From Inquilinus sp. Marseille-Q2685 (GTDB taxonomy: Bacteria; Pseudomonadota; Alphaproteobacteria; DSM-16000; Inquilinaceae): 64,000 bases of DNA. The notes under the pieces were generated by a model, which ran no database searches, was not told the origin of the DNA, and worked only from the letters and a program-made list of their open reading frames with translations. The position numbers and the translations under genes were made by a program. Below, one piece after another: positions 15,961 to 33,159 of the stretch. The stretch covers positions 310,001-374,000 of the forward strand of contig NZ_CAKAKL010000003.1 in the NCBI RefSeq assembly GCF_916619195.1. Reading direction: 5' to 3'. How positions within the stretch are numbered: position 1 is the first letter of the stretch; each line of letters opens with the position of its first letter.

Positions 15961-15993
15961 GCTGTCGGTCTATGCAAATCAGGAGCGAACACC

Positions 15994-16257: not shown

Positions 16258-16405
16258 CGAGACCCGAAACGGTGCGCCGACGGCCGCGCGGGCGGCCGAC
16301 GGCACGCTGTTCCGCGCTATGCGATTGCATGCTCACCGAGGCCGTGTCCGGTTCGTCGGTAACGCGCTGGCCTACGCTGGTCCCGGCAAGGATTGACGCG
16401 GTTCG

Positions 16406-16999: not shown

Positions 17000-17104
17000 C
17001 TGGTCGGAATGAGGACCCCGCTGCACGATGGAAGCGGAGGGCCTGCGCCGATGACGATAGGGCGCCATGCTTGCGTTTTGATCGGCCACGCGCATAGTGA
17101 CGGC

Positions 17105-17750: not shown

Positions 17751-18503
17751 ATGTTTCGTCCCAAGACCATTCGACGAGTGACGGCGATCTCCGCTGTCCT
17801 GGCGATGATGGCCGCGCCGTCGGCCTTCGCTCAGCAGGACTTCGATTCAGCGCAGAAGAAGGCGATCGAGCAGATCGTGCGCGACACCATCCAGGCGCAT
17901 CCGGAGATTGTGATCGAGGCGCTGGACGCCTATCAGGCCAAGCAGGAGGCCGACCAGCGCGGCGCCCAGGCCAGGGCGCTGACCAGCCGGGCCGACGACA
18001 TCTTCCGCAGCCCGTCATCGCCGGTGATCGGCAACCCGCAGGGTGACGTCACCCTGGTCGAGTTCTTCGACTACCAGTGCCCCTACTGCAAGCGGGTGCA
18101 GCCGGACCTGGAGCGCCTCCTGAAGGAGGACAGCGGGCTGCGCGTGGTGATGAAGGAGTTCCCGATCCTCGGCCCTACCTCGGTGACCGCGGCCCAGGCC
18201 TCGCTGGCGGCGCAGAAGCAGGACAGATACCGCGAGTTCCACATGACCCTGATGGCCGTGAAGGGCCAACTGACCGATCAGGTGATCTTCGACACGGCGA
18301 AGCAGGCCGGGCTCGACGTCGAGAAGCTGAGGCAGGACATGAACCAACCGTCGGTGGCGGCGGAGCTGCGCGCCAACATGGATCTGGCGCAGGCGCTCGG
18401 AATCCAGGGCACCCCAGCCTTCATCGTCAACAATCAGCTCATCCCTGGCGCCGTCGGCTACGACGCACTGAAGAGCCAGATCGAGAAGGACCGCGGTGGT
18501 TGA
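17751..18503 (+). CDS. DsbA-family periplasmic disulfide oxidoreductase (Com1/ScsC-like)
   Basis: Periplasmic thiol-disulfide protein of 250 aa. Signal peptide 1-27 (cleavage after AFA), an N-terminal helical stalk (about 30-85, with HPEIVIEALDAYQAK) like the trimerisation region of ScsC/Com1 proteins, then a DsbA domain with active site CPYC (Cys110, Cys113) and the cis-Pro loop GIQGTPAFIVNN. It could oxidise or shuffle disulfides and, like ScsC, act under copper stress. It heads a run of closely spaced genes: a CPIC membrane protein, a PBP2-like protein and a cytochrome c. Confidence 0.88.
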   Translation: MFRPKTIRRVTAISAVLAMMAAPSAFAQQDFDSAQKKAIEQIVRDTIQAHPEIVIEALDAYQAKQEADQRGAQARALTSRADDIFRSPSSPVIGNPQGDVTLVEFFDYQCPYCKRVQPDLERLLKEDSGLRVVMKEFPILGPTSVTAAQASLAAQKQDRYREFHMTLMAVKGQLTDQVIFDTAKQAGLDVEKLRQDMNQPSVAAELRANMDLAQALGIQGTPAFIVNNQLIPGAVGYDALKSQIEKDRGG

Positions 18504-18557: not shown

Positions 18558-19034
18558 TTGAGGAGACTTGAATCTGCGCCGGCGGTCGCTCGAGCTATAG
18601 GCGGAATCGCCACCGCCATTCTGTCCTTCTCGGCGCTCGGCACCGTTTCGGCGCTTTGGAGCAATCCGTGGTTCGTGCGGATGACGCCGGTCGGCGACTG
18701 GGAGGTGGCGCTGCTTGCGGCGTCGTCCGCCCTGGCCGGCCTCTACGTCGCCGTCCGACGCCCGGCCTGCTCGGCAAGGATGGCGGGGCTGGGCGGCGTG
18801 ATCAACTTCCTCGGGGTCGCCTGCCCCATCTGCAACAAGATCCTGGTCGCGGCCTTCGGCAGCGAACTGCTGATGAGCTACTTCGACCCGATCCGGATCT
18901 ATGTCGCCGCGGCCGGGGTGATCGTTCTCGCTGTTGCCGTCGTCGTGGAGGTCGCCAGATCACGCGGCCTGCTGCTCTCCCGTGCCTGGCTGAGGCGAGC
19001 CGATGGAGGGCACGGCCAAGGGATGCAGGGCTGA
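18558..19034 (+). CDS. Small membrane protein with CPIC motif
   Basis: 158-aa protein with about four hydrophobic helices. A conserved-looking segment GVACPICNKILVAAFG (Cys89, Cys92) lies in a membrane-embedded region, and Cys71 lies nearby. Membrane proteins with a CPxCNK motif recur in bacteria but have no assigned function. Its place between dsbA and a PBP2-like gene suggests a redox partner of the DsbA protein, a DsbB-like role being only an analogy. The start is a TTG with GGGAG seven bases upstream; no ATG is suitably placed. Confidence 0.65.
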   Translation: MRRLESAPAVARAIGGIATAILSFSALGTVSALWSNPWFVRMTPVGDWEVALLAASSALAGLYVAVRRPACSARMAGLGGVINFLGVACPICNKILVAAFGSELLMSYFDPIRIYVAAAGVIVLAVAVVVEVARSRGLLLSRAWLRRADGGHGQGMQG

Positions 19035-19036: not shown

Positions 19037-20908
19037 ATGTTCGAAGACGACAAGGTCAAGCAGAAGGCGTTCACGCGGCGGGCCCTCGTCCTGGCCGGGC
19101 TCCAAGGGGCCGCCATCGCCGGCCTCGGAGCACATCTCTACCGGCTGCAAGTCGTCGAACGGGACAAGTATCAGGTCCTGTCCGACAAGAACCGCATCCG
19201 GCTTCGGATGATGCCGGTCTCGCGCGGCCGCCTGCTGGACCGGACGGGGGCGCCGATCGCTGTCAACACCCAGAGCTTCGCGGCGCTTGTTACGCCGGAG
19301 AACGCCGACGATCTGCGAACGGCGCTCGCGCGGCTGGCCACGATCATTCCGATCGATTCGGACCGCATTCAAGGCGTGATCGACAAAGCCCACCGCCAGC
19401 CCGGCTACGTCCCGATCGAGATCCTGACCGGGCTCACGTGGGAGCAGATGGCGGCGGTTTCGGTCAGTCTGCCCGAGCTGCCGGGCGTCGCCGTGGAGCA
19501 GCGCGACCAGAGATCGTATCCCCTCGGATCGATCATCGGCCATCTCACAGGATATCTGGCCGAACCGTCGAAGCTGGGCGACCCGCTGCAGGAGAGGGCG
19601 GCCAAGCTCGGCTTGAAGGTCGGCGCGAACGGGCTGGAGCGCAGCTTCGAGGAACGGCTCCAGGGCCAGCCCGGAATGGTGCAGGCGGAGGTCGACGTCC
19701 GGGGCCGGACGGTGCGCCTTCTGTCGCAAACCCCGGGCGTTCCCGGCGAGGACGTCACCCTGGCCGTCGACGCCGGGTTGCAGAGCTACGTCGCCGAGCG
19801 CCTCCTCGCCGAACGCAGCGCTGCAGCGGTCGTCCTGGACATTCGCGACGGCGGAATCCTGGCGATGGTGTCCCAGCCCGGGTTCGATCCGAACACGCTG
19901 ATCGACGGCATCACCTCGGCGGAATGGGCCGGCCTTTCGAACAACACCGATCGGCCGCTCCTCAACAAGGCGATCTCCGGCGAGTATGCCCCCGGATCGA
20001 CCTTCAAGATGGTCGTGCTGCTCGCTGGGCTGCAGGCCGGTGTTATCACGCCGGATCACGCCGCCTCGTGCCGCGGCTTCATCGAGGTCGGCAGCTCCCG
20101 CTTCCATTGCTGGAAGCGCGGCGGACATGGTCGCGTCGGCATCCGCGAGTCGCTGAAATGGTCGTGCGACGTCTTCTATTACGATCTCGCCATCCGGGTC
20201 GGGATCGACCGCATCGCCGAGATGGCGAAGACGCTCGGCCTCGGGACCTCCTTCGACATCGGGCTCGCCGGCGAGCGGACGGCCCGGATTCCCACCGCGG
20301 AATGGAAGGAGGCCGCCTTCGGCCAGCCCTGGCGCGTCGGAGAAACTGTCAACGCCGGAATCGGCCAGGGCTACGTCACCACGACCGCCCTCCAGCTCGC
20401 CACGATGGCGGCACGGCTCGCGAGCGGTCGGGCCCTCACGCCATCGCTGATCCGGCGCGGCCCGGACGCGGCGGAGCCCGCTCCCCTGCCGATCGACCCG
20501 GAATTCCTTTCCCTTGCCGTCGGGGGGATGACGGCGGTGGTCAATGACCGCGACGGCACCGCCTGGTCGGCACGGATTCCGAACCCAGCCGAAGCGATGG
20601 CGGGCAAAACGGGAACCTCGCAGGTGCGTCGGATCACCATGGCGGAGCGGCAGGCCGGCGTCATCTCCAACAATGACCTGCCGTGGGAGCGGCGCGACCA
20701 CGCGCTCTTCGTCGCATTCTCGCCGATCCACAAGCCGCGCTTCGCCGCGGCCGTGGTGGTGGAGCACGGCGGCGGAGGATCGGCGGTCGCGGCGCCGATC
20801 GCACGGGACGTGCTCGTCGAAGCTCATCGGCTGCTTCCGGACCAGGCCGAGCATCATCACCTGATCGCCGCCGGCCCGGAGCAGCCGCCGTCGACTGGAC
20901 GCGGGTAG
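19037..20908 (+). CDS. mrdA: Penicillin-binding protein 2 (MrdA-like transpeptidase)
   Basis: Class B penicillin-binding protein of 623 aa with one N-terminal membrane anchor (about 15-37), a PBP dimerisation domain (about 55-225) and a transpeptidase domain. Active-site motifs: Ser321-TFK (PGSTFK), Ser376-Cys-Asp as the second motif, and KTGT at Lys524. SCD in place of the usual SxN is typical of PBP2. It makes D,D-crosslinks in the periplasm during elongation. The ATG at 19037 follows the previous stop by two bases; the frame extending to 18656 is a shadow. Genomes normally keep mrdA beside mreBCD and rodA, so this is probably an accessory copy. Confidence 0.9.
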   Translation: MFEDDKVKQKAFTRRALVLAGLQGAAIAGLGAHLYRLQVVERDKYQVLSDKNRIRLRMMPVSRGRLLDRTGAPIAVNTQSFAALVTPENADDLRTALARLATIIPIDSDRIQGVIDKAHRQPGYVPIEILTGLTWEQMAAVSVSLPELPGVAVEQRDQRSYPLGSIIGHLTGYLAEPSKLGDPLQERAAKLGLKVGANGLERSFEERLQGQPGMVQAEVDVRGRTVRLLSQTPGVPGEDVTLAVDAGLQSYVAERLLAERSAAAVVLDIRDGGILAMVSQPGFDPNTLIDGITSAEWAGLSNNTDRPLLNKAISGEYAPGSTFKMVVLLAGLQAGVITPDHAASCRGFIEVGSSRFHCWKRGGHGRVGIRESLKWSCDVFYYDLAIRVGIDRIAEMAKTLGLGTSFDIGLAGERTARIPTAEWKEAAFGQPWRVGETVNAGIGQGYVTTTALQLATMAARLASGRALTPSLIRRGPDAAEPAPLPIDPEFLSLAVGGMTAVVNDRDGTAWSARIPNPAEAMAGKTGTSQVRRITMAERQAGVISNNDLPWERRDHALFVAFSPIHKPRFAAAVVVEHGGGGSAVAAPIARDVLVEAHRLLPDQAEHHHLIAAGPEQPPSTGRG

Positions 20909-20913
20909 GCGCG

Positions 20914-21369
20914 ATGCGAAGATTATCTGGGGTGGTGATGGTCCTGGGGGTCGCCGGTGCCGTGGCCGGCGGCGCCGGACTCTGGTGGCTCGGTACCCGC
21001 CCCCCGAGGATAGACCCCACCGACGCGCGTCAGGTCGCCGCCGGCGCAGCCTTCTACTCGCAGAATTGCGCGAGCTGCCACGGCGCCGATCTGCAGGGCC
21101 AGGCGAACTGGCGGGAACGGCTGCCGTCCGGACGACTGCCGGCGCCGCCGCACGACGAGAGCGGCCACACCTGGCATCATCCGGACGCTGTTCTGTTCGA
21201 GATCGTCAAGAACGGCTACGGCGAGCTCGCGCCGCCCGGCTACGAGACCGACATGCCTCGCTTCGTCGGAATCCTGAGCGATCAGGAGATCGCCGATGTC
21301 CTCGCCTTCATCAAGAGCAGGTGGCCGCGAGATGTCCAGATGCGCCAAAGCCGCGCCAACAGTCCCTAG
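20914..21369 (+). CDS. Membrane-anchored class I cytochrome c
   Basis: Small c-type cytochrome of 151 aa. An uncleaved N-terminal anchor or signal (about 5-27) is followed by a single heme motif CASCH (Cys52, Cys55, His56) and a likely axial Met in TDMPRF; the C-terminal helix has SDQEIADVLAFIKSRWP. It should be periplasmic and shuttle electrons. It starts five bases after the PBP2-like gene, so it is in the same transcript, an unusual partner for a PBP. The downstream gene begins with the nrsF remnant. Confidence 0.85.
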   Translation: MRRLSGVVMVLGVAGAVAGGAGLWWLGTRPPRIDPTDARQVAAGAAFYSQNCASCHGADLQGQANWRERLPSGRLPAPPHDESGHTWHHPDAVLFEIVKNGYGELAPPGYETDMPRFVGILSDQEIADVLAFIKSRWPRDVQMRQSRANSP

Positions 21370-21393
21370 GTGCGTTCAGCAGGGAGATGCCAG

Positions 21394-22451
21394 ATGCTGA
21401 AGCAGCGACTGTCCACCGAGGTGTTGATCGAATTCCTGATGTCGCAACGCCTGGCCATCCACTATCGGACGACGGCGATCCAGCGGCTTTTCCCGGGCGC
21501 GGGCGGGATGGTCGCGGTGGTTTTTCACGCTTTCGCGCCGCCCCGGATGAGCCAAGTTTTGCGAGCCTTATTCCTGCTGGTGGTCGTTGTCGGCGTGATC
21601 GGGGTCGCGCGCCCGACCACCGGCATTGCGGAGGCGCACTACTTCTCCACTTTGAACCCGGGTGCGGCTCTGCCGGAGGATTGTGAACAACGCGTACGCC
21701 GCTCCTCATGGGAACCACGTCCGCTCAACTACGAAGCAAATCAAACACGTGGAAGAGGCGGCGTTGCGATTGATGGTGCCAGCGCCGATTTCAACCGGAA
21801 GTTCAGAGGCCGCGTGGACGGGAATTTCACAGGCACGACCGACGAGATCATTCGATGGGTTGCCTGCAAATGGGGGTTTGATGAAGATATCACGCGCGCC
21901 CGAGCGGTCCAGGAGAGCTCCTGGCGGCAGTCCAAGCTGGGCGACCGGTCCGACGATGCTCGGGTCTGCGCACGGATCGGCGAGGGTGCCCCATGCTGGC
22001 AGAGCTACGGGCTTCTGCAAGTAAAGGCGACCGTGCACGAGGGGACTTTCCCCTTGGCCCAACAGTCAACTCCGTTCAACGCAGACTATGCCTTGGGATG
22101 GCTCCGCGCTTGCTACGAAGGCGCTTTCAGCCACTGGCTTGGCGACGACTACGGCCCGGGTGACGAATGGGGCTGCATCGGGGCTTGGTACTCTGGCAAA
22201 TGGTACGATGACGCTGCCGTCGATTACATAGGTCACGTTAAGGCATATTCGGCCGCGCGCGCGTGGAAGGAGCCGCACTTTTGAACGGATTCCGACCGCG
22301 GGCGCTGCGCCGTCCTGTCCACCCATATCGTGCCGACGGAGCTCAGCACGCGGGCTTGGCTGGTCGACAGCGATCGGGACGATGGCCGTTGTTCCCGATC
22401 GGGGTGTCCATGCTCCGGCTGGCGGTCGAGTTCGCCAGTGTCCTCACATTC
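21394..22451 (+). pseudogene. Decayed, interrupted copy of nrsF (DUF1109)
   Basis: The segment 21377-21525 repeats the ribosome site and first about 44 codons of the intact nrsF gene at 22534 (CAGGGAGAT-CCAG, then MLKQRLSTE versus MLKRQLSTE), with scattered substitutions. A second piece at about 22371-22451 matches its middle (SGRWPLFPIGVSMLRLAVE versus SGRWLLLPIGATVLWLAVE). Between them lies an unrelated, lower-GC lysozyme-like gene. So a tandem nrsF duplicate appears to have been broken by an insertion of about 0.8 kb and is no longer functional. Confidence 0.7.
21547..22284 (+). CDS. Lysozyme/lytic-transglycosylase-like secreted protein
   Basis: 245-aa protein with a signal peptide (about 1-30, hydrophobic LRALFLLVVVVGVIGVA). 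The C-terminal half has an SLT/lysozyme-like pattern: a Glu-Ser in RAVQESSWRQSKLGD, then SYGLLQVKA, and NADYALGWLRACYEG, followed by WGCIGAWYSGKWYD. These fit a lysozyme-fold enzyme cleaving peptidoglycan glycan strands, though the family is not named with certainty. Base composition is visibly lower in GC than its neighbours and it sits inside a broken nrsF copy, signs of recent insertion. The in-frame extension to 21370 is the nrsF remnant; I start it at ATG 21547. Confidence 0.65.
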   Translation: MSQVLRALFLLVVVVGVIGVARPTTGIAEAHYFSTLNPGAALPEDCEQRVRRSSWEPRPLNYEANQTRGRGGVAIDGASADFNRKFRGRVDGNFTGTTDEIIRWVACKWGFDEDITRARAVQESSWRQSKLGDRSDDARVCARIGEGAPCWQSYGLLQVKATVHEGTFPLAQQSTPFNADYALGWLRACYEGAFSHWLGDDYGPGDEWGCIGAWYSGKWYDDAAVDYIGHVKAYSAARAWKEPHF

Positions 22452-22533
22452 GTGAGAGCCGGCGGCCGGCCGCTGCGCGGGCGCGGCAAAGTCGTGCCAA
22501 GGCGGCACAGACGCCATCGGCAGGGAGATTCCA

Positions 22534-23212
22534 GATGCTGAAGCGGCAATTGTCCACCGAGGAGCTCATCGAGATCCTGGTGTCGCAGAACCGGGCCATC
22601 CCGTCTCGGACGATGGCGATTCAGGGGCTTCTCCTCGGCCTTGGCGGGATGGCTGCGGTCTATTTCATCCTTTCGCTGGGCCCCGCCCGTACAGATCTGC
22701 GCATGTTGACGGCGGACCCGCCGTTCCTGATCCCGGTCGCCACATCCGCGCTCATCTGGCTCACCGGCGTCGCCGCGCTTTTTTTCCTGCGGGCGCCACA
22801 AGGCTCCGGGCGATGGCTATTGTTGCCGATCGGCGCCACCGTGTTGTGGCTGGCCGTCGAAATCGCCGGCGTCATCGCGGACCTGTCGTCCGATGGCAGC
22901 GCCGCCTTCGCCTTTGCCAGCAGCCCCGAATGTCCGCTCGCGATCATCGGTCTGGGCGCCGCGGCCCTTCTGGCGCTCCTATTCTTCGTCCGTGATGCCG
23001 TGCGCCTGTGGAAGGTCCCGGCGATCGGCGTTGCAGCGGCCGCCGCCGCCTCGCTTCCTGCGAGCCTCCTCAATTTGTTCCATTCCCTCGACACCGCCGC
23101 GATGGTCCTCCTCTGGCACGGTGTGACGGTCGGAACGATGACGGCCACAGTGATGCTCGTCGCCCGTCGGCGGTTCCGCCGGCCGATCGCGGATGGAAGG
23201 GTTTCCCCGTGA
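22534..23212 (+). CDS. nrsF: NrsF/DUF1109-family membrane anti-sigma factor
   Basis: 225-aa protein with six predicted membrane helices after a short cytosolic N-terminus (MLKRQLSTEELIEILV). This is the DUF1109/NrsF pattern: in Caulobacter, NrsF is the membrane anti-sigma partner of an ECF sigma (SigF) and senses heavy metals through conserved cysteines. A Cys lies in the expected place (SSPECPLAIIG). No ECF sigma gene is present nearby. Strong AGGGAGAT ribosome site. A DUF305 gene follows 119 bp downstream. Confidence 0.82.
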
Positions 23213-23331
23213 GGGCGGCGGACAAGGCCAGCCGGTCTCGCGGGCCGCCCGAAGCGCGATTTCGGTCCCGAAGAGAAACTCGGCCGAACCAGCGTCTCAG
23301 CAGCAACGTCCACCACAACAGGAGTCGAATT

Positions 23332-23739
23332 ATGGCACGCCTCGCAGTTCCCACCGTGCTCGTCGCCGCCTTGGCGATCAGCAGCTGGGCCGTCGTTCAG
23401 CTTGCGGAGCCCCGGGCCTCGAGCGCCCAGAGCATGGATCACTCCACAATGCCCGGTATGTCGTCCGGCTCGGGGATGATGGATAGCCCCGCTTCGAAGG
23501 CCATGATGGAGGCGATGGGCCGGATGCAGACCAGCATGTCCGGGGCGATGACCGGGAATCCGGATGTCGATTTCGCCCAGGGCATGATCCCCCATCACCA
23601 GGGAGCGATCGACATGGCCAGGATCGAGCTGCAATACGGCACCGATCCGGAGCTCAAGAAGCTCGCCGGAGAGATCGTCGCCGCCCAGGAGAAGGAGATC
23701 GCCTTCCTCAAGGATTGGCTTGCCAAGCGCGGCAAGTGA
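23332..23739 (+). CDS. DUF305 (CopM-like) periplasmic protein
   Basis: 135-aa secreted protein of the DUF305 family. A signal peptide is followed by a Met/His-rich linker (MDHSTMPGMSSGSGMM) and the DUF305 core with MIPHHQGAIDMARIEL near its centre and an alpha-helical C-terminus. Relatives such as cyanobacterial CopM bind copper in the periplasm. It follows nrsF in the same direction and fits periplasmic copper buffering. Start ATG 23332 has ACAGGAG upstream. Confidence 0.88.
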   Translation: MARLAVPTVLVAALAISSWAVVQLAEPRASSAQSMDHSTMPGMSSGSGMMDSPASKAMMEAMGRMQTSMSGAMTGNPDVDFAQGMIPHHQGAIDMARIELQYGTDPELKKLAGEIVAAQEKEIAFLKDWLAKRGK

Positions 23740-23924
23740 CGAAGTAACCCGACCTGAGGCCGGGCTCGTCATCCGGCAGCCGTCGGATCTTCGCCGGCCG
23801 CTGCCGGAAGCGGCGAGCGTCTCCGACACCCCGGACGCATCGGCGTCCGGCGGTTCGGGGTGCGTGGCCAGGTTGGACGGACACCGAAAAGCTGAAACAT
23901 CGTCGACGAGAAAGGATTCTTCCT

Positions 23925-24893
23925 ATGGCGGCCACACCCTACCGACTCTCCGGCAAGCGGGTCTTCGTCGCCGGCCATCGCGGCATGGTGGGCTCGGCCA
24001 TCATGCGCAGGCTGTCGGGTGAGGACTGCGAGTTGCTGACCGCGGGACGAGAAGAGGTCGATCTCCGGCGGCAGGAGCAGGTCGAGGACTGGCTCGCCAC
24101 CAGTCGGCCGAACCTGGTCTTCATGGCAGCGGCGACGGTCGGCGGGATTTTCGCCAATGACACGCGTCCAGCCGACTTTCTCTACGACAACCTTGCGATC
24201 GAGACGAACATCATCCACGCCGCGCACAAGGCCGGCGTGGAGAAGCTCGTGTTCCTGGGCTCTTCCTGCATCTATCCCCGGGATGCGGACCAGCCGATGA
24301 CCGAAGCAGCGTTGCTGACCGGACCGCTCGAGCCCACGAACCAGTGGTATGCCGTCGCCAAGATCGCGGGGATCAAGCTGTGCCAAGCCTATCGGCGCCA
24401 GTACGGCGTAGACTTCATCTCGGTCATGCCGACCAACCTCTATGGTCCGCACGACAATTTCGATCTCAATGCCTCCCACGTCGTACCCGCCCTGATGCGC
24501 AAGGCGCATGAGGCCAAGCTGAAGGGAGATTCGACTTTGGTGGTTTGGGGCAGCGGTCTGCCCCGGCGGGAATTCATGCACGTCGATGATCTGGCCGATG
24601 CCTGCGTCCATCTCGCGGCGGTGTATTCCGGTGAAGAGTACGTGAATGTCGGAGTGGGGCGGGATCTGAGCATCCGCGAATTGGCCGAACTGATCTGCGA
24701 AGTCGTCGGCTTCCGGGGGATGCTCGTCTTCGATGCATCTCGCCCGGACGGCACGCGGCGCAAGCTGCTCGACGTATCACGGCTCACGGGGCTCGGCTGG
24801 AGGGCCCGCATCGGACTCGAAGAGGGCCTGGCTGCGACCTATCGATGGTATTTGGAATCAGCGCCGCGGCTTGCCGGCACGGTTTCCGAGTAG
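23925..24893 (+). CDS. fcl: GDP-L-fucose synthase
   Basis: NAD(P)-dependent sugar epimerase/reductase of 322 aa, normal for the family. It converts GDP-4-keto-6-deoxy-D-mannose to GDP-L-fucose in the cytosol for surface polysaccharide. The N-terminal cofactor site is VAGHRGMVGSA; the catalytic Ser-Tyr-Lys set is in FLGSSCIYP and WYAVAKIAGIK; the substrate segment NLYGPHDNFD is typical of Fcl. No gmd or glycosyltransferase lies beside it, so it is an isolated polysaccharide gene in this region. It has its own upstream gap of 185 bp. Confidence 0.92.
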   Translation: MAATPYRLSGKRVFVAGHRGMVGSAIMRRLSGEDCELLTAGREEVDLRRQEQVEDWLATSRPNLVFMAAATVGGIFANDTRPADFLYDNLAIETNIIHAAHKAGVEKLVFLGSSCIYPRDADQPMTEAALLTGPLEPTNQWYAVAKIAGIKLCQAYRRQYGVDFISVMPTNLYGPHDNFDLNASHVVPALMRKAHEAKLKGDSTLVVWGSGLPRREFMHVDDLADACVHLAAVYSGEEYVNVGVGRDLSIRELAELICEVVGFRGMLVFDASRPDGTRRKLLDVSRLTGLGWRARIGLEEGLAATYRWYLESAPRLAGTVSE

Positions 24894-24915
24894 CAGCGCG
24901 AGCTCGCGGCGCTGC
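24893..24915. terminator. Hairpin between convergent fcl and M23 genes
   Basis: GCAGCGC (24893-24899) pairs with GCGCTGC (24909-24915) around a nine-base loop, directly after the fcl stop codon. It lies between converging genes, so it may stop transcription from the left. There is no clear T-run, so factor-independent termination is only possible. Confidence 0.45.
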
Positions 24916-24993
24916 CTGCTCGGCTCGCAGCCGGATTCCGAGGGTAGTTGCACGCCGGCCGGCGCTGATACCGACGGTGACGCTGCAGGAGCG

Positions 24994-25548
24994 TTACCGT
25001 TGCGCGAGCTGGCGGTCCGCTGCTACCGGCCCGAATGCGAGCTGCGGGTCGACCGGCTTGCTATCCTTCATCAGTTCGAAGTGCAGATGAGTCCCGGTTG
25101 CCCGCCCCGAGCGGCCGACATAGCCGATCGTCTGCCCTTGCTTGACCTGCAGGCCAGGCCGGATCCCAGGTGCGAAATCCTTCAGGTGAGCATAGAGGGT
25201 CTTCGCCGCTGAATGTTCGATTACGATGTGGCGGCCGTACCCGGAGTCGGTTGCGACGATCTCCACCAGACCACTCGCGGCTGCGATGACCGGGGTGCCC
25301 ATCGGTGCCCGGAAGTCGATGCCGGTGTGCATCCGGCCATGCCTCTGCCCGAACGGCGAGCCGATCCCGGTGGCGCGCACCGGCACAATGAAGCTGTCCA
25401 GCCCCGGCGTGGCCGGCGGTCTGGACGAGACCGACTGCGGCGTCGTGCCCTTTGACGATCCCGTCACCGGCGGCGCGGCCGCGGCACCGCACGCAGCCAG
25501 ACCGACCGATGCGATCACCAGGACAAGGGCATGACGCGTTCTCTTCAT
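24994..25548 (-). CDS. M23-family peptidase-like lipoprotein (peptidoglycan endopeptidase)
   Basis: 184-aa protein with a lipoprotein signal (lipobox LAAC, Cys20) and a LytM/M23 domain. Zn ligands are present: His74 and Asp78 in MHTGIDF and the HLHFE motif (His154, His156), with His121 in YAHLKD. It should therefore be an active D,D-endopeptidase, or an amidase activator, at the outer or inner membrane. It lies 142 bp downstream of the L,D-transpeptidase on the same strand, so the CueR promoter at 26894 may also serve it. Confidence 0.87.
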   Translation of the reverse strand: MKRTRHALVLVIASVGLAACGAAAAPPVTGSSKGTTPQSVSSRPPATPGLDSFIVPVRATGIGSPFGQRHGRMHTGIDFRAPMGTPVIAAASGLVEIVATDSGYGRHIVIEHSAAKTLYAHLKDFAPGIRPGLQVKQGQTIGYVGRSGRATGTHLHFELMKDSKPVDPQLAFGPVAADRQLAQR

Positions 25549-25690
25549 CTTCGGGATGATTCCGATGTGTGAATGGGGGGCGGCGAAGGTCAGTGCGGGT
25601 CGAGGGAACCGCGCAGCGGAAAAGGCCTATGCGCTTTCCGAGAACGGAAGCGCGCCGCGACGGTCGTCGCGGCCGTGCCAGCGGTTCAGG

Positions 25691-26851
25691 TCAATCCAGT
25701 CCGTAGACGTCCCGGCCGTAGCGGATTCCGCCGAGTTCGTCCGGATAGGCGGTGTAGTAGGCCATCTGGACGGTCACCGGTGTCGGGACGCGGGCAAAGC
25801 TCGTCTTCCCTGCATTGATACGCGCCTGGACCTCTTCGGTCGTCGTGTCCAGGACCCAGGCTGCGAACTCGAGATACCGTTCGACGCGAACGCAGCCGTT
25901 GGACAGCGCGCGGCTGTCTCGGGTGAACAGCGCCTTCTTGGGTGTGTCGTGCAGGTAGATCGACCGCGTGTTGTCGAGCTCGAATTTCAGAAGGCCGAGA
26001 GCATTGTCGTCCCCCGGTGGCTGCCAGAAGCGCAGGCCGTCATAGCCGATCGAATAGGGGGAAATATCGGCGACGTCGTAAAGCGTGTTTTCCGGACCTT
26101 TGACTTTGACGCCGATGCGACGCACCTCGTCATATCGTCCGGCCAGCAGGAGTTTCCGATACTTTTCGGTCAATCCGGACGGAACGGTCCAGTCCGGATT
26201 GTACTTCACGGCCGTCAGCCGCGACGTCATTCGGGGCGTCTGCGTCTCCGGAGTTCCGACGATGACGCGCGAACGCATCACCTCCTTGCCGTTTTCGAAC
26301 GCGATCACCTCCGCCAAGGGGATGTTGACCAGGATCGACTTGCCCTCCGCCGGCGGAGGGCTGTACCGGGCCAACGTCCTGACAATCGCGGACCGCGCAT
26401 CATCCGGCCCGAAGTTCAGCGCCCACATCGTCGACCGCCCGACCACTCCGTCGTCACCCAATCCCCAGGCGCGCTGGAACGTCTTCACGTTCTCCTCCAA
26501 CTGGGGGTCGTAGACCTGCTCGGACGGCGCGGGCGGCGTCGCCTCGGTCACCGCCGAGGCACTGGCATCTCCGACGGAATAGGCCGCTGGGCCGGGCGTT
26601 CCGTCTCCCAACGCCGCGAGTCGCGCTTTGAGCAACGGAACGCGCGCATCGATGTCGCCTGGTTTCAACGACGTACCCGAGATATCCGCCACCGGGTTGC
26701 CTGCGACTTGGCCATCGAGCTCGCCAAGTGCTTGGGAGAGCCGGGAATATACCGGATCGACGATCGGCGCGGTGGCCGAATGAGTTGTCGCCCATGCAGC
26801 GGTCGAGACGCTCAGCGCAAGCGCACAAACAGACGCGGCCTTCAATATCAC
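25691..26851 (-). CDS. L,D-transpeptidase (YcbB-like) under CueR promoter
   Basis: Periplasmic peptidoglycan L,D-transpeptidase of 386 aa. Signal peptide 1-22; a PG_binding_1-like segment (about 113-146, VKTFQRAWGLGDDGVVG); YkuD catalytic domain from about 170, with His301 (YLHDTPKK) and Cys320 in the SNGCVRV motif. It forms 3-3 crosslinks that bypass penicillin-binding proteins. Size and the inserted region in the catalytic domain fit the YcbB/LdtD class. Its start is about 40 bp downstream of a near-perfect CueR promoter, so it should be copper-induced. This class is known to be inhibited by copper through its catalytic Cys. Confidence 0.92.
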   Translation of the reverse strand: MILKAASVCALALSVSTAAWATTHSATAPIVDPVYSRLSQALGELDGQVAGNPVADISGTSLKPGDIDARVPLLKARLAALGDGTPGPAAYSVGDASASAVTEATPPAPSEQVYDPQLEENVKTFQRAWGLGDDGVVGRSTMWALNFGPDDARSAIVRTLARYSPPPAEGKSILVNIPLAEVIAFENGKEVMRSRVIVGTPETQTPRMTSRLTAVKYNPDWTVPSGLTEKYRKLLLAGRYDEVRRIGVKVKGPENTLYDVADISPYSIGYDGLRFWQPPGDDNALGLLKFELDNTRSIYLHDTPKKALFTRDSRALSNGCVRVERYLEFAAWVLDTTTEEVQARINAGKTSFARVPTPVTVQMAYYTAYPDELGGIRYGRDVYGLD

Positions 26852-26893
26852 TCGCCCCTCCTCACGCTGAGCCTTCGCTCGCAGTATGATCGA

Positions 26894-26924
26894 TAGATCG
26901 ACCTTCCACCGACCGGAAGGTCAA
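26894..26924 (-). promoter_or_regulatory. CueR promoter/operator of L,D-transpeptidase gene
   Basis: Minus strand: -35 TTGACC (26924-26919), 19-bp spacer, -10 GATCTA (26899-26894). The dyad is ACCTTCC-N7-GGAAGGT (26901-26921), both arms perfect and identical to the copA1 site. The transpeptidase start codon lies about 43 bp from the -10. The site faces only this gene; the rightward neighbour begins 180 bp away and has no -35 on its side. Confidence 0.9.
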
Positions 26925-27104
26925 GCTTGCGGCACCGCTGCGCCGTCTTGTCGCTGCTCCGCATCAAGGAACGTCCCTCCGCGTTTGCAAATGACTTTGT
27001 CGTTGCTTCTCAACGCCCAACGTCTATCTTTTCAGACACGGCTTTCGATGCCGTGAGGGGACCGGGCAGCCACCACCGCAGCGAGTTTGGAAATCCCTGC
27101 AGCC

Positions 27105-27464
27105 ATGATGCGATGCAAGTTGTCCTGGCGCCTCAAGCGGCTGCTGTCGACGCTTCTCGCGGTGCTGGTGCTCGTGACTGCGCTTCACAATTTCGGAGTG
27201 CCCGCTGACACGGCGCACGGAGCGGAGTTCGTTGCCGCCGCCGACGGTGACGGGTCGAACCGGGACGACGTCAGGGGACAGCAGGGCGTCGGGCACCATG
27301 TCTTCTCGGAAAAACACGTTCACCCCGTCGGCCTAATCACCTCGGCCGAGCATGATCATGTGCTGTCCGCCTTCAGCTTGAGCTGGCCGGACACCAGCGA
27401 CGGCCTGTCGGAAATGCCGGCAGGGGAGCTGCATCGTCCACCGCGCGAGAGCCGCGTCCGCTGA
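27105..27464 (+). CDS. Small His-rich secreted protein of unknown function
   Basis: 119-aa protein with an N-terminal signal or anchor (SWRLKRLLSTLLAVLVLVTAL). The mature part is acidic with scattered histidines (GVGHHVFSEKHVHPVG and SAEHDHVLSAF), which could bind metal. No family is recognised. It faces rightward from the L,D-transpeptidase promoter region. Paired ATGs at 27105 and 27108 are possible starts. It resembles in size and style the other small secreted proteins of this region but has no Cys in the mature part. Confidence 0.5.
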   Translation: MMRCKLSWRLKRLLSTLLAVLVLVTALHNFGVPADTAHGAEFVAAADGDGSNRDDVRGQQGVGHHVFSEKHVHPVGLITSAEHDHVLSAFSLSWPDTSDGLSEMPAGELHRPPRESRVR

Positions 27465-27562
27465 TGCGCGAAGCGCGTCTGCGACGATGGCCGCGGGTCG
27501 CTCTATAAACAGTCCTGATCCGAGGTTTCGGCAGTCCGCTTCGCGCTGACGAAGAGGCCGGC

Positions 27563-28513
27563 ATGCGCCGGCCGTGGCTCAGCTCAATCGAAACGGACGA
27601 TGACATGCTCATGCAATCCTGGCGCGCTCGGCGCGCCATCAAGAACAATTTCGCCAAGGTCGGATACTTCCCCGACGCCGAGGGCTGGCGGGAAATCAAG
27701 CTCGGGATCGAGCGCGATCTGCAGGCCCGCCGCCTGCGCCCCAATGTCCGGGTGCCTCCCAGGCGCGACCTGCTTCGCTATCTGAGCACGCTGCGGCGAG
27801 AAACCGGCTCGCTAATCAAGGCGCTGGACGCGGCGCTCTATGCGGGATCCTGGACGTCCAGCGGCGGCTCCTTCCGCCTCGCCGACATGATCGGACTCGA
27901 CCTTGCCGCGCTGGTCGGTGCCTGGCTCCGGGTCAACGGAAGCGTCCGCTTCCTGGAGGTCGGCGGCGGCTGGGCTGGGTTCCGATCACGCCCCGGCCGG
28001 GATGCGCTCATCGACGACATCGCCGGGCTCGCCTCCGCCCATCCGAGAAGCCTCGACCGGTCACTGCATCTTCACTTCACCAATCTGACCCGGTGGCACA
28101 ACGATCTGCCCGCCGGCGTCAGGGAGCATCCTTTCGTCACGGCGGCCGGAATCCTCGCGGTCGAGCAGGATGGCGTGCCGCGCGGGAACGTGGACATCAT
28201 CTACTCGCAGGCGGCCGCCTATTTCGAAAGGGACGCGCAAGCATTCCTTTGTGGCGCGGCGACCCTCCTGAGGCCGGCCGGGCTCCTCGTGTTCAATCAC
28301 AGGGAGGAGATCGCCGACGACGTCCTTCGGGCCTCTCGGGCCTGCGGTCTCGACCTTCAGTCACATCGAGACCTCGGAGGCATGAACGGCAGAGTCGCCT
28401 GTCTCGTCAAGGGTGCCGCCCTCTCGAAGACCGCCATGACGGTGCAGGCGGACGACGGGGAGGCATCCTCCGGCCCCGACCACCGTCGCCTGAAGATCCG
28501 TGCCCGCCGGTGA
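27563..28513 (+). CDS. Putative SAM-dependent methyltransferase-like protein
   Basis: 316-aa cytosolic protein. A glycine motif VRFLEVGGGWAGF near residue 133 resembles motif I of class I methyltransferases, followed at a fitting distance by LHLHFTNLTRW and by DIIYSQAAAYFERDAQAFL, which resembles motif IV and the following helix. The N-terminal 110 residues are basic and unassigned. Substrate unknown. GAAGAGG precedes the ATG; a second ATG at 27605 is possible. The transglutaminase-like gene starts 5 bp after the stop, so they are probably co-transcribed with the PBP3-like gene. Confidence 0.55.
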   Translation: MRRPWLSSIETDDDMLMQSWRARRAIKNNFAKVGYFPDAEGWREIKLGIERDLQARRLRPNVRVPPRRDLLRYLSTLRRETGSLIKALDAALYAGSWTSSGGSFRLADMIGLDLAALVGAWLRVNGSVRFLEVGGGWAGFRSRPGRDALIDDIAGLASAHPRSLDRSLHLHFTNLTRWHNDLPAGVREHPFVTAAGILAVEQDGVPRGNVDIIYSQAAAYFERDAQAFLCGAATLLRPAGLLVFNHREEIADDVLRASRACGLDLQSHRDLGGMNGRVACLVKGAALSKTAMTVQADDGEASSGPDHRRLKIRARR

Positions 28514-28518
28514 TCGCC

Positions 28519-29274
28519 ATGAATCGCCGTCTCTTCATGTCCGCGGCGGCCGCCGGGCTGCTGTTCTCGGTCCGGTGCGTCGCTGCGCAGGAGGCGATCC
28601 AACTGGCGGTGCTCGATCGCGCCGCGGCGACCCGATCGTTTCTCGACGATCGGCGCCGGCGGGAAGACGCGATCCCCACAAGCGCGGAGGAAGTCGCGGA
28701 GATCCTCGGGCGCGGCCTCTCGCCGGTCGAGCAGCGCATCATGGCCTTCGAGCTCGTCCGAGGATTCCCCTATCGCCTCAGCCGATGGGATCCGAGCCAG
28801 CCGGACGGGCTGTTCGCCCTGGGCGCTGGAGATTGCCGGCACAAGGCCGCTGCGCTGCGCCGGCTGTTCCGGATCTGGGGCTATCCGGCCCAGCCGGTCC
28901 AGGTCGTTTTCGACTGGAGGGATCTGCCGATCCCGGATTCGATTCTCGCGCTGCTCGGCGAAACACGAAGCTTCCATCAATCCGTGGAGGTCGGCCTCGA
29001 CGGACGCAGCATCATCGTCGACGCGACCTGGGATCCCTTCCTCGGGACACAGGGATTTCCCGTGCTGTCCGCATGGGACGGCCGCGGCGCGACGCTCCAG
29101 TTGACGAAGGCCGCGACCGAGGTGATCCGGCCAAGCGCCTATGCCAGCTTCGGAGAACTGTTCCAGCGGTATGGCATCGCCTGGCCGAGCCGGGAGAAGA
29201 CGCTCGCCTTCAATCGGGCCCTCAACGCGTGGCTCGATGGGCTGCGCGGCGAGGGCAGGGAGGGGAGGACCTGA
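28519..29274 (+). CDS. Transglutaminase-like secreted protein
   Basis: 251-aa protein with a Tat-like or Sec signal (MNRRLFMSAAAAGLLF) and a transglutaminase-like Cys-His-Asp core: Cys106 in GAGDCRHKAAALRRLF, His153 in SFHQSVEVGLDG and Asp168 in IIVDATWDP. Such folds act as cysteine proteases or peptidoglycan-linked enzymes in bacteria; the substrate is unknown. Its stop codon overlaps the start of the PBP3-like gene (TGATG at 29272-29276), so the two are translationally coupled, hinting at joint action in the cell wall. Confidence 0.72.
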   Translation: MNRRLFMSAAAAGLLFSVRCVAAQEAIQLAVLDRAAATRSFLDDRRRREDAIPTSAEEVAEILGRGLSPVEQRIMAFELVRGFPYRLSRWDPSQPDGLFALGAGDCRHKAAALRRLFRIWGYPAQPVQVVFDWRDLPIPDSILALLGETRSFHQSVEVGLDGRSIIVDATWDPFLGTQGFPVLSAWDGRGATLQLTKAATEVIRPSAYASFGELFQRYGIAWPSREKTLAFNRALNAWLDGLRGEGREGRT

Positions 29275-30989
29275 TGGTGCAGGACATCGGAGCCTCTCAG
29301 GCGCGGCCTGTAAACATGAAGCAGGCCAGGAAGCGTCTCGCCGTTCTGACGCTGCTGTCTCTCGCCGCTTTCGTCGTGGTCTCCGTCCGCCTGATCTGGG
29401 TCATGGGGCCGGCGCAGAGCCGCGGGGACGCGCACGGGTTTGAGATGATCGAGGCGACACCTCAGCGGCCGGAGATCCGCGACCGCAACGGAGTCCTGCT
29501 CGCGGTCAATGTCGATATCCCGTCGATCTATGCGGATCCGCAGATCATCCCCGATCCGGAGGAGGCGGCGAAGCTGCTGGCCCGGGTGCTTCCGGGGCTC
29601 GATCCCATTGAGATCCGCAGGCGCATCGCGGCCGGCGGGCGGTTCCTATGGATCAAGCGACAGGTGGCGCCGGCCGTTCTGAAGGCGGTCAATGCCCTCG
29701 GGATCCCGGGGATCGACTATCGCATGGAGACGAAGCGGGTCTATCCCAGCGGCCGGATCGCGGCGCATGTGGTCGGGTACACGAGCGTGGATGATGCCGG
29801 CATCGCCGGCATCGAGGCCTATCTCGATCAACTGGTGCGGCAGACCGGCCCGGGCGGCACGGAGGCGGTGCGGCTGTCCCTCGATATCCGGGTGCAGGCC
29901 CTGCTGCATGCATCGCTTCTCCGCGCGATCGAGACGTATCAGGCCCGAGCGGCCGCCGGGCTGGTGCTCGACGTGACCAATGGCGAGGTCCTCGCGCTTG
30001 TTTCGCTGCCGGATTTCGACCCGAACACACCGGCTGAGGCCCTCGACCCCCAACGCATCAATAGAATCAACGTCGGCGTCTACGAGATGGGGTCGACCTT
30101 CAAGGCCCTCACCACGGCGATGGCGCTGGACTCTGGACTGTTCACGATAAACTCGTCTCTGGATGCGCGGGAGCCGTTGCGGTTCGGACGCTTCAGCATC
30201 AACGATTACCGGGGCGAGAAGCGCATCCTGACGCTTCCGGAGGCCTTTATCTACTCGTCGAACATCGCCATGGCCCGCATGGCTCTGGCAGTCGGCGCCG
30301 AGCGGCAGAAGGCGTTCCTGGGCCTGATGGGGCAGTTCGGGAAGCTGCGGACCGAACTGCCCGAGACGGCCCAGCCGATCGTCCCGGCGCAATGGGGGGA
30401 GGTCACGACGGCCACAGTGGCCTTCGGACACGGCATCGCCGTTGCGCCGCTGCAGGCGGCCATGGCAGTCGCGGCCCTGGTGAACGGCGGCGACCTGATT
30501 AGGCCGACCCTCATCGCAGGGGCGGAGGTCGGATCGAGGCTCGTCGCCCGTGGGGTGGTCACGCCCGAAACGGGCGAGGCCCTGCGATATCTGATGCGTC
30601 TCAATGCCGAGCGGGGCTCGGCCAAGAAGGCGGACGTCGCCGGCTACATGGTGGGCGGGAAGACGGGCACGGCCGAGAAGGTCGTGGACGGCCGATATGC
30701 CGGCAGCCGGTCGCTGACGGCCTTCATGGGCATCTCGCCGGCCGATGCGCCTCGCTACCTCTTCCTGACGATCCTCGATGAGCCGCAAAGCACTCCCGAC
30801 TCCTACGGGTTCGCGACGGCGGGGTGGAACGCCGCGCCAGTGACCGGAAGGATCATGGCGGGCGCCCTTCCCATGCTTGGGGAGGTGCCGCGCTTTGGGT
30901 CGGTACCTCAAGCGTTTCCCACCATGGCAGCGCGCGGGGCGTGGGGCAGCGTGCCCGAGACCGGGAGGGATGCTGCCAAGCATCGGTGA
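29274..30989 (+). CDS. ftsI: PBP3/FtsI-like peptidoglycan D,D-transpeptidase
   Basis: Class B penicillin-binding protein of 571 aa. One membrane anchor (about 21-45), a PBP dimer domain beginning at RPEIRDRNGVLLAVN, and a transpeptidase domain with Ser274-TFK (MGSTFK), Ser328-Ser-Asn (IYSSNIA) and Lys463-TGT (GGKTGTAEK). These identify the division-type septal transpeptidase family. The normal ftsI lies in the dcw cluster; none of those genes is here, so this is probably an accessory copy. It overlaps the transglutaminase-like gene by one base. Confidence 0.88.
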   Translation: MVQDIGASQARPVNMKQARKRLAVLTLLSLAAFVVVSVRLIWVMGPAQSRGDAHGFEMIEATPQRPEIRDRNGVLLAVNVDIPSIYADPQIIPDPEEAAKLLARVLPGLDPIEIRRRIAAGGRFLWIKRQVAPAVLKAVNALGIPGIDYRMETKRVYPSGRIAAHVVGYTSVDDAGIAGIEAYLDQLVRQTGPGGTEAVRLSLDIRVQALLHASLLRAIETYQARAAAGLVLDVTNGEVLALVSLPDFDPNTPAEALDPQRINRINVGVYEMGSTFKALTTAMALDSGLFTINSSLDAREPLRFGRFSINDYRGEKRILTLPEAFIYSSNIAMARMALAVGAERQKAFLGLMGQFGKLRTELPETAQPIVPAQWGEVTTATVAFGHGIAVAPLQAAMAVAALVNGGDLIRPTLIAGAEVGSRLVARGVVTPETGEALRYLMRLNAERGSAKKADVAGYMVGGKTGTAEKVVDGRYAGSRSLTAFMGISPADAPRYLFLTILDEPQSTPDSYGFATAGWNAAPVTGRIMAGALPMLGEVPRFGSVPQAFPTMAARGAWGSVPETGRDAAKHR

Positions 30990-31527: not shown

Positions 31528-33159
31528 ATGCGCAAACTACGCTATGGGCTCGGCGCCGCCGCGCTGGGACTGGCCGGCTTCGTGCTCGGCCTCTGGGTTC
31601 AGGGCGGCACCTCCCATCTCGTCGATCTCGGCTCTTCGGCCTTCGCAGCCGTCACGAGGACGGCGTCGGAGACGACGATGCGGGTCGCCAAGGAAGACGA
31701 CCCGATCGTGTTCTGGCGCGACCCGATGGGCAATCCCGTCGTCTCGGCGGAACCGAAGAAGGACTCCATGGGCATGGACTACGTGCCCGTCCGGCGGTCC
31801 GAGGTCGCACCGCTGTTCCCGAAGATCGGGCAGGACGGCCAGACGCCGGCCGATGAGCGCCCGCTATTCTACCGCGATCCCATGGGCGGCACCGATACGT
31901 CGCCGGTCCCCCGGAAGGACGGGATGGGCATGGACTACCTGCCGGTCTACCCGTCGCAGGTCGCACCGGTGCTGCCGCCGCTCGGCGCGCGCAGCGAAGC
32001 CGCACCGGCCCCGGAAACCCCTGCAGCTTCGGCTGCAGGGGGAGGGCGCCGGATCCTCTACTACCGCAACCCGATGGGCCTTCCCGACACCTCGCCGGTG
32101 CCCAAGAAGGATTCGATGGGGATGGACTACACCCCCGTCTACGCCGACGAAACGGCCGACGACGGCAGCATCGGCATCAGCCCGGCTCGCCTCCAGACCA
32201 TGGGGGTGCGGACCGCGCCGGCGTCCCGGCAGGTCATGACGCGGAGCATCCGCGCCATCGGCACCATCGCCACCGACGAGCGCCGGAGCGCGATGGTGAC
32301 GCCCCGGGTCGAAGGCTGGATCGAACACCTCTACGTCAACGAGACCGGCCGCGGCGTGGCCGAGGGCGAGCCGCTGATGGAAGTCTACAGCCCGGACCTC
32401 CTGCGGGCCCAGTCCGACTATCTCCTGGCCGTCACCAGCGGCCGCTCCGGGGACCTCGAGGGCGGACGGTTTCGTCTGGTGAACCTCGGCCTCTCCGATC
32501 CGCAGATCGATCGCATCCGGGCCTCGGGGAGGATCCTCCGAACCATCCAGATCCCGGCGCCGATCGGCGGGACAGTGCTGTCCAAGACCGCCATCGAAGG
32601 CATGATGTTCCGCCCCGGAGATCCGCTGTTCCGCATCGCCGATCTCTCCACGGTCGTCGTCCTGATCGACGTCTTCGAACAGGATGTCGGCCTGCTGCGG
32701 CAGGGGCTGCCGGTGTCCGTCACCATCGCCGCCTATCCTGGAGAAACGTTCCAGGGCAGCGTCGACCGCATCTACCCGGCGCTGGAAACTGCGACGCGGA
32801 CCGCCAAGGTCCGCATCACGCTGCCGAACCCGGACGGTCGCCTGCGCATCGGCATGCTGGCGACCGCCGAGGTCGCAGCGCCGACGTCCGGCGGGAACGA
32901 GGTCGTCTCGGTTCCGGCGGCTGCGGTGGTCGATAGCGGCGAGCGCCGGACCGTGTTCGTCGAGACCGGCGCCGGCCGGTTCAAGCCGGTCGAGGTTCGG
33001 ACGGGAGCCCGCGCCGATGGCCGGGTCGAGATCCTCTCCGGCCTCTCCGGAACCGAGACGGTGGTGGACGGCGCCACCTTCCTGATCGATGCCGAGAGCA
33101 ACATGCGCGCGGCGATTGCCGCGTTCGCGGCGGAGCCCGGGCAGGAGGCGTCGCGATGA
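31528..33159 (+). CDS. cusB: CusB-like RND efflux adaptor with three metal-binding repeats
   Basis: Periplasmic membrane-fusion protein of a Cu(I)/Ag(I) RND pump, 543 aa. After a membrane anchor (about 8-25) come three tandem repeats (about 60-90, 112-142, 176-206) of the form (Y/W)RxPMGxPxxSxxPKKDSMGMDYxPVY, the Met-based heavy-metal-binding domain. Then follow the lipoyl/barrel-sandwich part (TPRVEGWIEHLYVNETG) and beta-barrel domains. One copy is usual. The stop overlaps cusA by four bases (ATGA). The frame start at 31486 adds residues without support. No cusC outer-membrane gene is in the window. Confidence 0.93.
   Translation: MRKLRYGLGAAALGLAGFVLGLWVQGGTSHLVDLGSSAFAAVTRTASETTMRVAKEDDPIVFWRDPMGNPVVSAEPKKDSMGMDYVPVRRSEVAPLFPKIGQDGQTPADERPLFYRDPMGGTDTSPVPRKDGMGMDYLPVYPSQVAPVLPPLGARSEAAPAPETPAASAAGGGRRILYYRNPMGLPDTSPVPKKDSMGMDYTPVYADETADDGSIGISPARLQTMGVRTAPASRQVMTRSIRAIGTIATDERRSAMVTPRVEGWIEHLYVNETGRGVAEGEPLMEVYSPDLLRAQSDYLLAVTSGRSGDLEGGRFRLVNLGLSDPQIDRIRASGRILRTIQIPAPIGGTVLSKTAIEGMMFRPGDPLFRIADLSTVVVLIDVFEQDVGLLRQGLPVSVTIAAYPGETFQGSVDRIYPALETATRTAKVRITLPNPDGRLRIGMLATAEVAAPTSGGNEVVSVPAAAVVDSGERRTVFVETGAGRFKPVEVRTGARADGRVEILSGLSGTETVVDGATFLIDAESNMRAAIAAFAAEPGQEASR

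Follow-up and report, generated by a model that had tools for sequence, protein, structure and literature searches.

Export, oxidation, and binding of the metal are the usual explanations of copper resistance. The CueR regulon of Escherichia coli comprises CueR, copA, and a multicopper oxidase, with TTGACC-palindrome promoters, and genes of the same kinds are found in the DNA described here; that regulon is not known to contain a wall synthase. In Listeria, lit2 is reported to be copper-induced and to lie in copper-resistance operons (Armbruster 2019, as described in PMC7387801), and pcoG, which is situated between the pco and sil genes, encodes a putative M23B enzyme (PMC4276825). The window analyzed in the present study is a stretch of 64,000 nucleotides from Inquilinus sp. 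Marseille-Q2685 (G000:C3:310001-374000; genome of 7.29 Mb in 18 contigs). Gene calls and family searches show that it contains a real cluster of wall enzymes amid copper genes: the penicillin-binding proteins PBP2 and a PBP3-like protein, an L,D-transpeptidase (LDT), an M23 lipoprotein, and a transglutaminase-like protein (TGL). We consider, with a probability of roughly 0.55, that this island is a copper-linked spare set of envelope-building enzymes, which copper would induce as replacements for damaged ones.

PBP2 (19037–20908, plus strand), a second copy of the MrdA-type class B PBP, matches Transpeptidase (1.1e-55) and PBP_dimer (9.6e-34) in Pfam and scores 637.6 bits against the NCBIfam pbp2_mrdA cut-off of 455, and its motifs STFK (321), SCD (376), and KTG (524) are intact. 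It has a copper context instead of an mreBCD/rodA context, and it is assigned to PBP2 by sequence because context is not needed for the family. The PBP3-like protein (29274–30989, plus strand), recognized through Pfam, NCBIfam, and a tree as a class B PBP of an accessory, non-FtsI group, also keeps its STFK, SSN, and KTG motifs; it neither lies in a dcw cluster nor groups with housekeeping FtsI, and it is therefore filed as a class B PBP and not as FtsI. The LDT (25691–26851, minus strand) combines PG_binding_1 and YkuD domains in Pfam, with a YkuD score of 80.2 bits (cut-off 23.4) and the active-site motif SNGCVR containing Cys320; it is related to LdtD/YcbB and scores below the equivalog cut-off of that family (NCBIfam NF007891, 190.6 bits vs 425). 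The M23 endopeptidase-like lipoprotein (24994–25548, minus strand), found with Pfam, has a lipobox-like LAAC; its gene, on the strand of the LDT, stands 142 bp downstream of it. TGL (28510–29274, plus strand) falls just under the cut-off of Pfam Transglut_core (19.9 bits vs 23). Its putative triad residues, Cys109, His156, and Asp171, are invariant in 7/7 rows, and the nearest entries to its modeled fold, weak at best (E 1.3e-3), are of the LapG-complex and transglutaminase types. The original prediction, which was made from the nucleotide sequence alone, had named six wall enzymes, and these five were found where it placed them. The sixth, a putative lysozyme-like secreted protein (21370–22284, plus strand), could not be upheld: it was recognized by the motif ESSW...SYGLLQ, read by eye only, and the open reading frame has zero matches in Pfam, NCBIfam, and PDB sequences. 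By eye, its N-terminus resembles a third, broken copy of NrsF.

The enzymes had also been supposed to duplicate a housekeeping set, and the genome bears this out. The Transpeptidase domain has nine matches: the window pair, one copy each on contigs C2 and C1, and five others. The nearest relative of PBP2 outside the window, 44% identical to it, is at C2:674637, behind mreB, mreC, and an MreD-like gene that is just under its cut-off, and that of the PBP3-like protein is at C1:1424751, between MraW and MraY/Mur-ligase genes, i.e., in a dcw cluster. Since further copies exist, the island PBPs are not the only mrdA and ftsI of the cell. The genome contains four other YkuD genes, and a second Lgt, a prolipoprotein diacylglyceryl transferase found by family search in the window (45497–46294, minus strand) beside cueR and a Cu-ATPase, has a counterpart at C2:836589. 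PBP2, the PBP3-like protein, LDT, and Lgt of the island are thus extra copies beside housekeeping ones. SEDS glycosyltransferases number only two in the genome, both on C1. Because the window has none, the island PBPs would have to borrow RodA/FtsW. Second copies of PBP2 are rare, both in 61 genomes and in 387 genomes of the class, where two PBP2 matches were seen in five (at most three candidates being scored per genome). When 84,980 species, each represented by a single genome, were searched by exact peptides, no close relative of the window PBP2 was found. None of five genus relatives was seen to have a second PBP2, and the island is therefore accessory.

Among the surrounding copper genes are two CueR, two Cu-ATPases, CusB/CusA, a multicopper oxidase, DUF305, DUF411, SCO1, and PCuAC. 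The sequence ACCTTCC-N7-GGAAGGT has two exact matches in the window, both on the minus strand: a perfect CueR box, found by motif search before copA (13003–13023), and a perfect CueR-type operator at 26901–26921, which is 49 bp upstream of the LDT start and whose TTGACC faces the LDT. A third CueR-type box with two mismatches (15933–15953, plus strand) precedes a gene for a heavy-metal-associated (HMA) protein (15994–16257, plus strand; family search) and might be a promoter upstream of the run DsbA-CPxCNK-PBP2-cytochrome c. A 24-base box model was built from 15 copA boxes of related loci and from no others. Among 21 window genes scored with it, copA, the HMA gene, LDT, the second Cu-ATPase, and the gene at 50933 exceeded the 99th percentile of random windows; PBP2, the methyltransferase-like gene, M23, Lgt, and the other genes scored fell below it. 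Judged by sequence, the window has a putative CueR regulon, with two CueR above the cut-off of 147.4 bits (8882–9286, minus strand, 153.8 bits, start codon uncertain; 46407–46796, minus strand, 163.8 bits) and perfect boxes at copA and LDT. The boxes point to copper control of the LDT, and the claim that at least one wall enzyme is copper-regulated stands at that level, through the perfect palindrome facing the gene. A scan of 15.8–31.6 kb for ordinary promoters and terminators gave no more than shuffled sequences did.

Similar islands are carried by three plasmids of Rhodobacterales, from Neotabrizicola shimadae (L012), Tabrizicola piscis (L015), and Gemmobacter fulvus (L054). Each has cueR-copA-HMA-DUF305 and a run LDT-cytochrome c-cytochrome c-CPxCNK-ferric-reductase-like-PBP2-cytochrome c-DsbA, followed by DUF411 and a multicopper oxidase; M23, SCO, PCuAC, and Lnt are also present in L015 and L054. 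CPxCNK, PBP2, cytochrome c, and DsbA of the window match their equivalents in L012 and L015 at 40–51% identity. The CPxCNK protein (18558–19034, plus strand, start codon uncertain) is a small helical membrane protein with no match above Pfam or NCBIfam cut-offs and no fold relative in PDB, and its motif is kept in 5/5 rows of a tblastn-derived alignment. Its family is uncharacterized; members occur in copper islands and in DsbA/DsbD loci, and plasmids of haloarchaea hold weaker matches. A scan for the family in one genome per species, by a pattern that itself required the CPxCNK motif, gave 113 pattern matches and 89 relatives, of which the best 80 were taken as loci L055–L134. With a fixed query panel, 61 of these best 80 of 89 loci match a class B PBP, an LDT, or M23 (PBP2 in 47, PBP3 in seven, LDT in 49, M23 in 23), and a copper gene is present as well in 57 of these 61. 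If fragments are left out, the counts become 60/80 loci, as the sole wall match of L125 is a PBP2 fragment, and 44 full PBP2 matches. The loci are not independent, since several come from one genome, e.g., three each from Pseudogemmobacter bohemicus and Cypionkella psychrotolerans. Fifty of the 80 were assigned to a Rhodobacterales type by title or by island likeness, including L077, L104, L122, and L128, which have other or vague titles. All 50 of these (49 without L125) have a wall match, a count that is partly circular and tells that much less for the proposal, because the CPxCNK marker was picked for adjoining PBP2.

In the Rhodobacterales run, LDT is the first gene. The gaps from LDT to the last gene in L015 are 76, 131, 2, −11, −38, −4, −14, −4, 112, and −4 bp, and the genes from LDT to PBP2 overlap or lie within 131 bp of each other. 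The box model matches 40 of 56 plus-strand LDT matches, or 40 of 54 genes, as two of the matches are split halves. These 40 boxes, which include 11 distinct ones in all, stand 27–34 bp before the LDT and are all in loci with PBP2; 0/39 minus-strand LDTs in the loci have a CueR-type box. The LDTs without a box include second LDT copies, small LDT-CPxCNK loci of Aminobacter and others, and the PBP2 loci L064, L085, L100, L101, and L117. L063, L064, and L069 show another Rhodobacterales arrangement, in which copA and cueR come roughly 1 kb after PBP2. A PBP2 search of 16 locus genomes found at least two copies, inside and outside the island clade, in 12/12 from Rhodobacterales, and no match at 1e-60 in four from Hyphomicrobiales.

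The Hyphomicrobiales share the other part of the window set. The order methyltransferase-like protein (MTase)-TGL-PBP3-CPxCNK is repeated in six of their loci (L066, L067, L070, L073, L090, and L129), in which PBP3 is 57–58% identical to that of the window and M23 is nearby; CopA and Lgt are upstream in L073 and L090. In L093, which a contig end truncates, CopA, CueR, MTase, and TGL adjoin CPxCNK, and L061 of Bosea has CopA, a multicopper oxidase, CPxCNK, PBP3 on the opposite strand, and a second CopA. The MTase-TGL-PBP3 wall enzymes played no part in the choice of the CPxCNK marker. Outside the Rhodobacterales type, a wall match was found in 11/30 loci (five of the 30 being shorter than 10 kb), compared with 1/40 arbitrary loci searched with the same panel (Fisher p 2e-4), the latter being 20-kb loci of other Alphaproteobacteria at hand-picked round coordinates, with a class B PBP, LDT, or M23 counted as a match. 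The original prediction allowed that the block might never be found with copper genes elsewhere; it recurs in islands of both Rhodobacterales and Hyphomicrobiales, so that the neighborhood is conserved in three groups, and the link to copper is borne out by this neighborhood and by the CueR-type boxes before LDT in the window and in Rhodobacterales.

The phylogeny bears on how the set was assembled. In a 68-row PBP2 tree, 22 Rhodobacterales copper rows, some of them identical copies, form one clade (SH-aLRT 100) within the Rhodobacterales housekeeping PBP2s (99), and the window PBP2 falls outside this clade on a long branch. With 66 rows, two long outgroup rows being omitted, an approximately unbiased test did not reject a single clade of the window and copper PBP2s (p 0.08). 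Either PBP2 was recruited twice or the window copy is misplaced in the tree. STxK, SCD, and KTG are kept in 22/22 aligned Rhodobacterales island PBP2 rows, all of which (e.g., L015 13893–15848) share GST[VI]K and SQVFSI near the active site; the displayed housekeeping rows of Alphaproteobacteria read GSTFK and SQVR or AQVR instead, and a Pseudomonas row also has GSTVK. A branch of the PBP3 tree (support 51/95; 93% of 200 bootstrap trees) sets the 12 FtsI rows apart on one side; the window PBP3 is on the other, among island and plasmid PBPs, without a firm place.

Beta-lactam tolerance is classically gained through additional class B PBPs, so the island PBPs might be low-affinity paralogs that travel with metal resistance by chance. 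An unrelated PBP3-like gene of an enterobacterial plasmid does adjoin a beta-lactamase gene; it lies directly before blaLAP-2 (L223 8803–11455), with no metal gene annotated. However, the three Rhodobacterales copper stretches L012, L015, and L054, whose annotation is incomplete, have no annotated beta-lactamase; the operon is headed by CueR-type boxes; and the lipoprotein and redox genes do not fit. We regard beta-lactam resistance as a highly improbable reason for the set.

The reading that we favor is as follows. On sensing Cu(I), CueR would switch on LDT together with the copper pumps, accompanied by the M23 hydrolase in the window and by a gene run including PBP2 in Rhodobacterales. In the accessible parts of the sources, copper is stated to inhibit the L,D-transpeptidases of E. 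coli (PMC9302775, citing Peters 2018), and copper-treated E. coli is described as accumulating Lpp forms like those of Lgt-depleted cells, with lipoprotein maturation stalled (PMC6538781). The extra LDT and the extra Lgt might refill the steps hit by copper. The serine-based, thiol-independent PBP2 and PBP3, borrowing RodA/FtsW, could carry cross-linking while thiol enzymes are blocked, and DsbA, TlpA, CPxCNK, and cytochrome c may hold the thiols and the copper of the periplasm in a safe form. The set is indeed broader than wall enzymes, including Lgt (Lnt in some relatives), thiol-redox proteins, and the small CPxC membrane protein. From the sequences we infer induction by copper, a division of labor among the enzymes, and a benefit under copper. 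A fuller form of the idea, which we put forward tentatively and rate below even odds, is target replacement, in which mobile alphaproteobacterial copper islands would bring a second assembly line for wall and lipoproteins under CueR control. This line (LDT, PBP2 or PBP3, M23, and Lgt or Lnt, with CPxCNK and DsbA as thiol-redox partners) would stand in for housekeeping enzymes poisoned by copper, and PBP2 may have entered the same neighborhood on two occasions.

Another possibility is that the wall is remodeled for copper export or shielding, so that an envelope with changed cross-links would bind less copper or admit the CusCBA pump. M23 and LDT are remodeling enzymes, CusBA is downstream of PBP3, and an M23 enzyme, pcoG, has been described before from the pco/sil copper determinant; in addition, N-acylation of lipoproteins by Lit2 has been suggested to shield the membrane from copper (PMC7387801). 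Remodeling, however, does not call for a further PBP2, PBP3, or Lgt whose catalytic motifs are intact or whose family scores are full, and the Rhodobacterales operons couple the wall enzymes to thiol-redox proteins and cytochromes, not to the pump. We regard remodeling as unlikely, and replacement of damaged enzymes is preferred to it, as well as to chance gathering, mainly because the known copper targets, LDT and Lgt, match duplicated genes, which is itself a matter of interpretation.

Several observations weigh against the replacement of damaged enzymes by a copper-induced set. Adding a copper-sensitive LDT under copper seems odd unless dosage is the point. In the loci, a CueR-type box stands directly before 0/50 PBP2, 0/7 PBP3, 0/7 MTase, 0/7 TGL, 0/11 M23, and 0/2 Lgt genes, and in the window as well none is directly before any of the six; copper control is consequently conjectural for the PBP3 trio, and that of the window PBP2 would depend on a putative and unproven read-through from 15933 over a gap of about 300 bp. 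The LDTs of the window and of Rhodobacterales are of different subtypes, the latter being best matched by short Tabrizicola LDTs and never by that of the window. Of the non-Rhodobacterales CPxCNK loci, 19/30, including all Azospirillum-like ones, have no wall enzyme in view. Loci chosen by multicopper oxidase are not enriched in wall enzymes, with 1/40 against 1/40 arbitrary loci on a common panel, and two against two on a broad panel with 40 loci on each side; these 40 came from the top of the match list, with the window's own and seven others, six near contig ends, passed over. The claim is accordingly limited to islands with CPxCNK or MTase-TGL genes. PBP2 can also be lost, as it is only a fragment of 180–492 bp in 3/47 loci (L117, L125, and L128), and accessory PBPs on plasmids of Agrobacterium (L014) and Microvirga (L019), which are like the window PBP3 (52–55% identity), differ from it in having a PBP1A gene adjoining and no metal gene annotated nearby.

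The last two points would also suit an explanation by hitch-hiking, in which unrelated envelope genes were gathered by chance on accessory replicons and have no role in copper. The accessory nature of the island, absent as its second PBP2 is from the five genus relatives, agrees with this, as do the GDP-fucose-synthase-like and RTX genes nearby, which look unrelated. Chance gathering would nevertheless have to account for the recurrence of the same gene sets beside copper genes in groups that are distinct, where gene order is conserved, genes overlap, and the box spacing is near-fixed, and we find it quite unlikely.

The fragments of PBP2 are at 7675–8043 in L117, 11084–11263 in L125, and 10646–11137 in L128, where the following cytochrome c is kept and PBP2 has apparently been lost. 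TGL is rare in the class, matching 3/389 genomes (the window's own and two weak ones), and matches 263 plasmid records, 232 of which are named Klebsiella or Enterobacter. Four stretches inspected for its plasmid neighborhoods (L219–L222) are two pairs of near-identical elements. On Klebsiella plasmids, the MTase-TGL pair adjoins the nickel genes ncrA-ncrB-ncrC (13069–17851 in both L219 and L220), and on Rhizobium and Shinella plasmids, the pair (L221 13966–15714, and L222) has a nickel/cobalt efflux gene some 4 kb away; these pairs are 37–48% identical to that of the window.

The remaining genes of the island complete its layout. The CopA-type Cu P-type ATPase (10414–12963, minus strand) was identified by family search, as were a TlpA-like thioredoxin-fold protein (16406–16999, plus strand) behind the HMA gene and a cytochrome c (20938–21369, plus strand) close behind PBP2, a pair that is also found in Rhodobacterales islands. 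A DsbA/ScsC-type periplasmic thioredoxin-fold protein (17778–18503, plus strand; Pfam DSBA and ScsC_N) opens the stretch of 17.8–21.4 kb, which continues with CPxCNK, PBP2, and this cytochrome c; M23 and LDT occupy 25.0–26.9 kb on the minus strand, and the trio occupies 27.6–31.0 kb, starting with the MTase (27563–28513, plus strand), whose Pfam match has an E of only 0.042. Family searches also gave a DUF305 protein (23332–23739, plus strand), present in related copper islands too, a CusB/HlyD adaptor with a CusA/CzcA efflux pump (31528–36320, plus strand), a group of multicopper oxidase, DUF411, two redoxins, SCO1, and PCuAC (38082–43093, plus strand), and the second Cu P-type ATPase (47373–49697, minus strand), with a CueR-type box 163 bp upstream. 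An RTX calcium-binding repeat protein gene (13648–15156) lies between copA and the HMA gene, and a GDP-fucose-synthase-like epimerase gene (23925–24893) lies between DUF305 and M23. Two NrsF-type anti-sigma proteins are encoded, at 22382–23212 in the copper region and at 51203–51880 at its edge.

The presence of spare wall enzymes in copper islands suggests that survival of copper involves replacing damaged wall enzymes besides pumping the metal out. If this is true, the envelope would be a main target of copper in nature, and the islands would be a metal counterpart of the drug-resistance genes that bring an insensitive target. Exposure to copper could then select for extra PBPs and L,D-transpeptidases, with consequences for the response to beta-lactams. 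The CPxCNK family offers a marker for finding such islands, and a CueR-type promoter and named organisms are available for tests.

It is known that copper islands carry envelope enzymes (lit2, lgt, and pcoG), and PBPs and a CueR-driven LDT in such islands are without precedent among the literature matches listed, where open-licence papers contain no report of PBP2, PBP3, or a CueR-driven LDT in copper islands. Listeria lit2 is like the window island in being a copper-induced extra copy of an envelope-maturation enzyme in a mobile copper operon, but it encodes a lipoprotein enzyme in Firmicutes, and the accessible part of PMC7387801 mentions no wall synthases. The tcrYAZB copper islands of Enterococcus faecalis have an extra lgt, as the window does at 45497–46294, but the accessible part of PMC4511184 names no PBP, LDT, or transglutaminase-like gene. 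The pco/sil determinant (CHASRI) includes an M23 metallopeptidase among its copper genes, as the window does, but no PBP is named in the accessible parts of PMC4276825 and PMC8478169; of the pco/sil-type genes, the window shows a CusBA-type pump, a multicopper oxidase, and M23.

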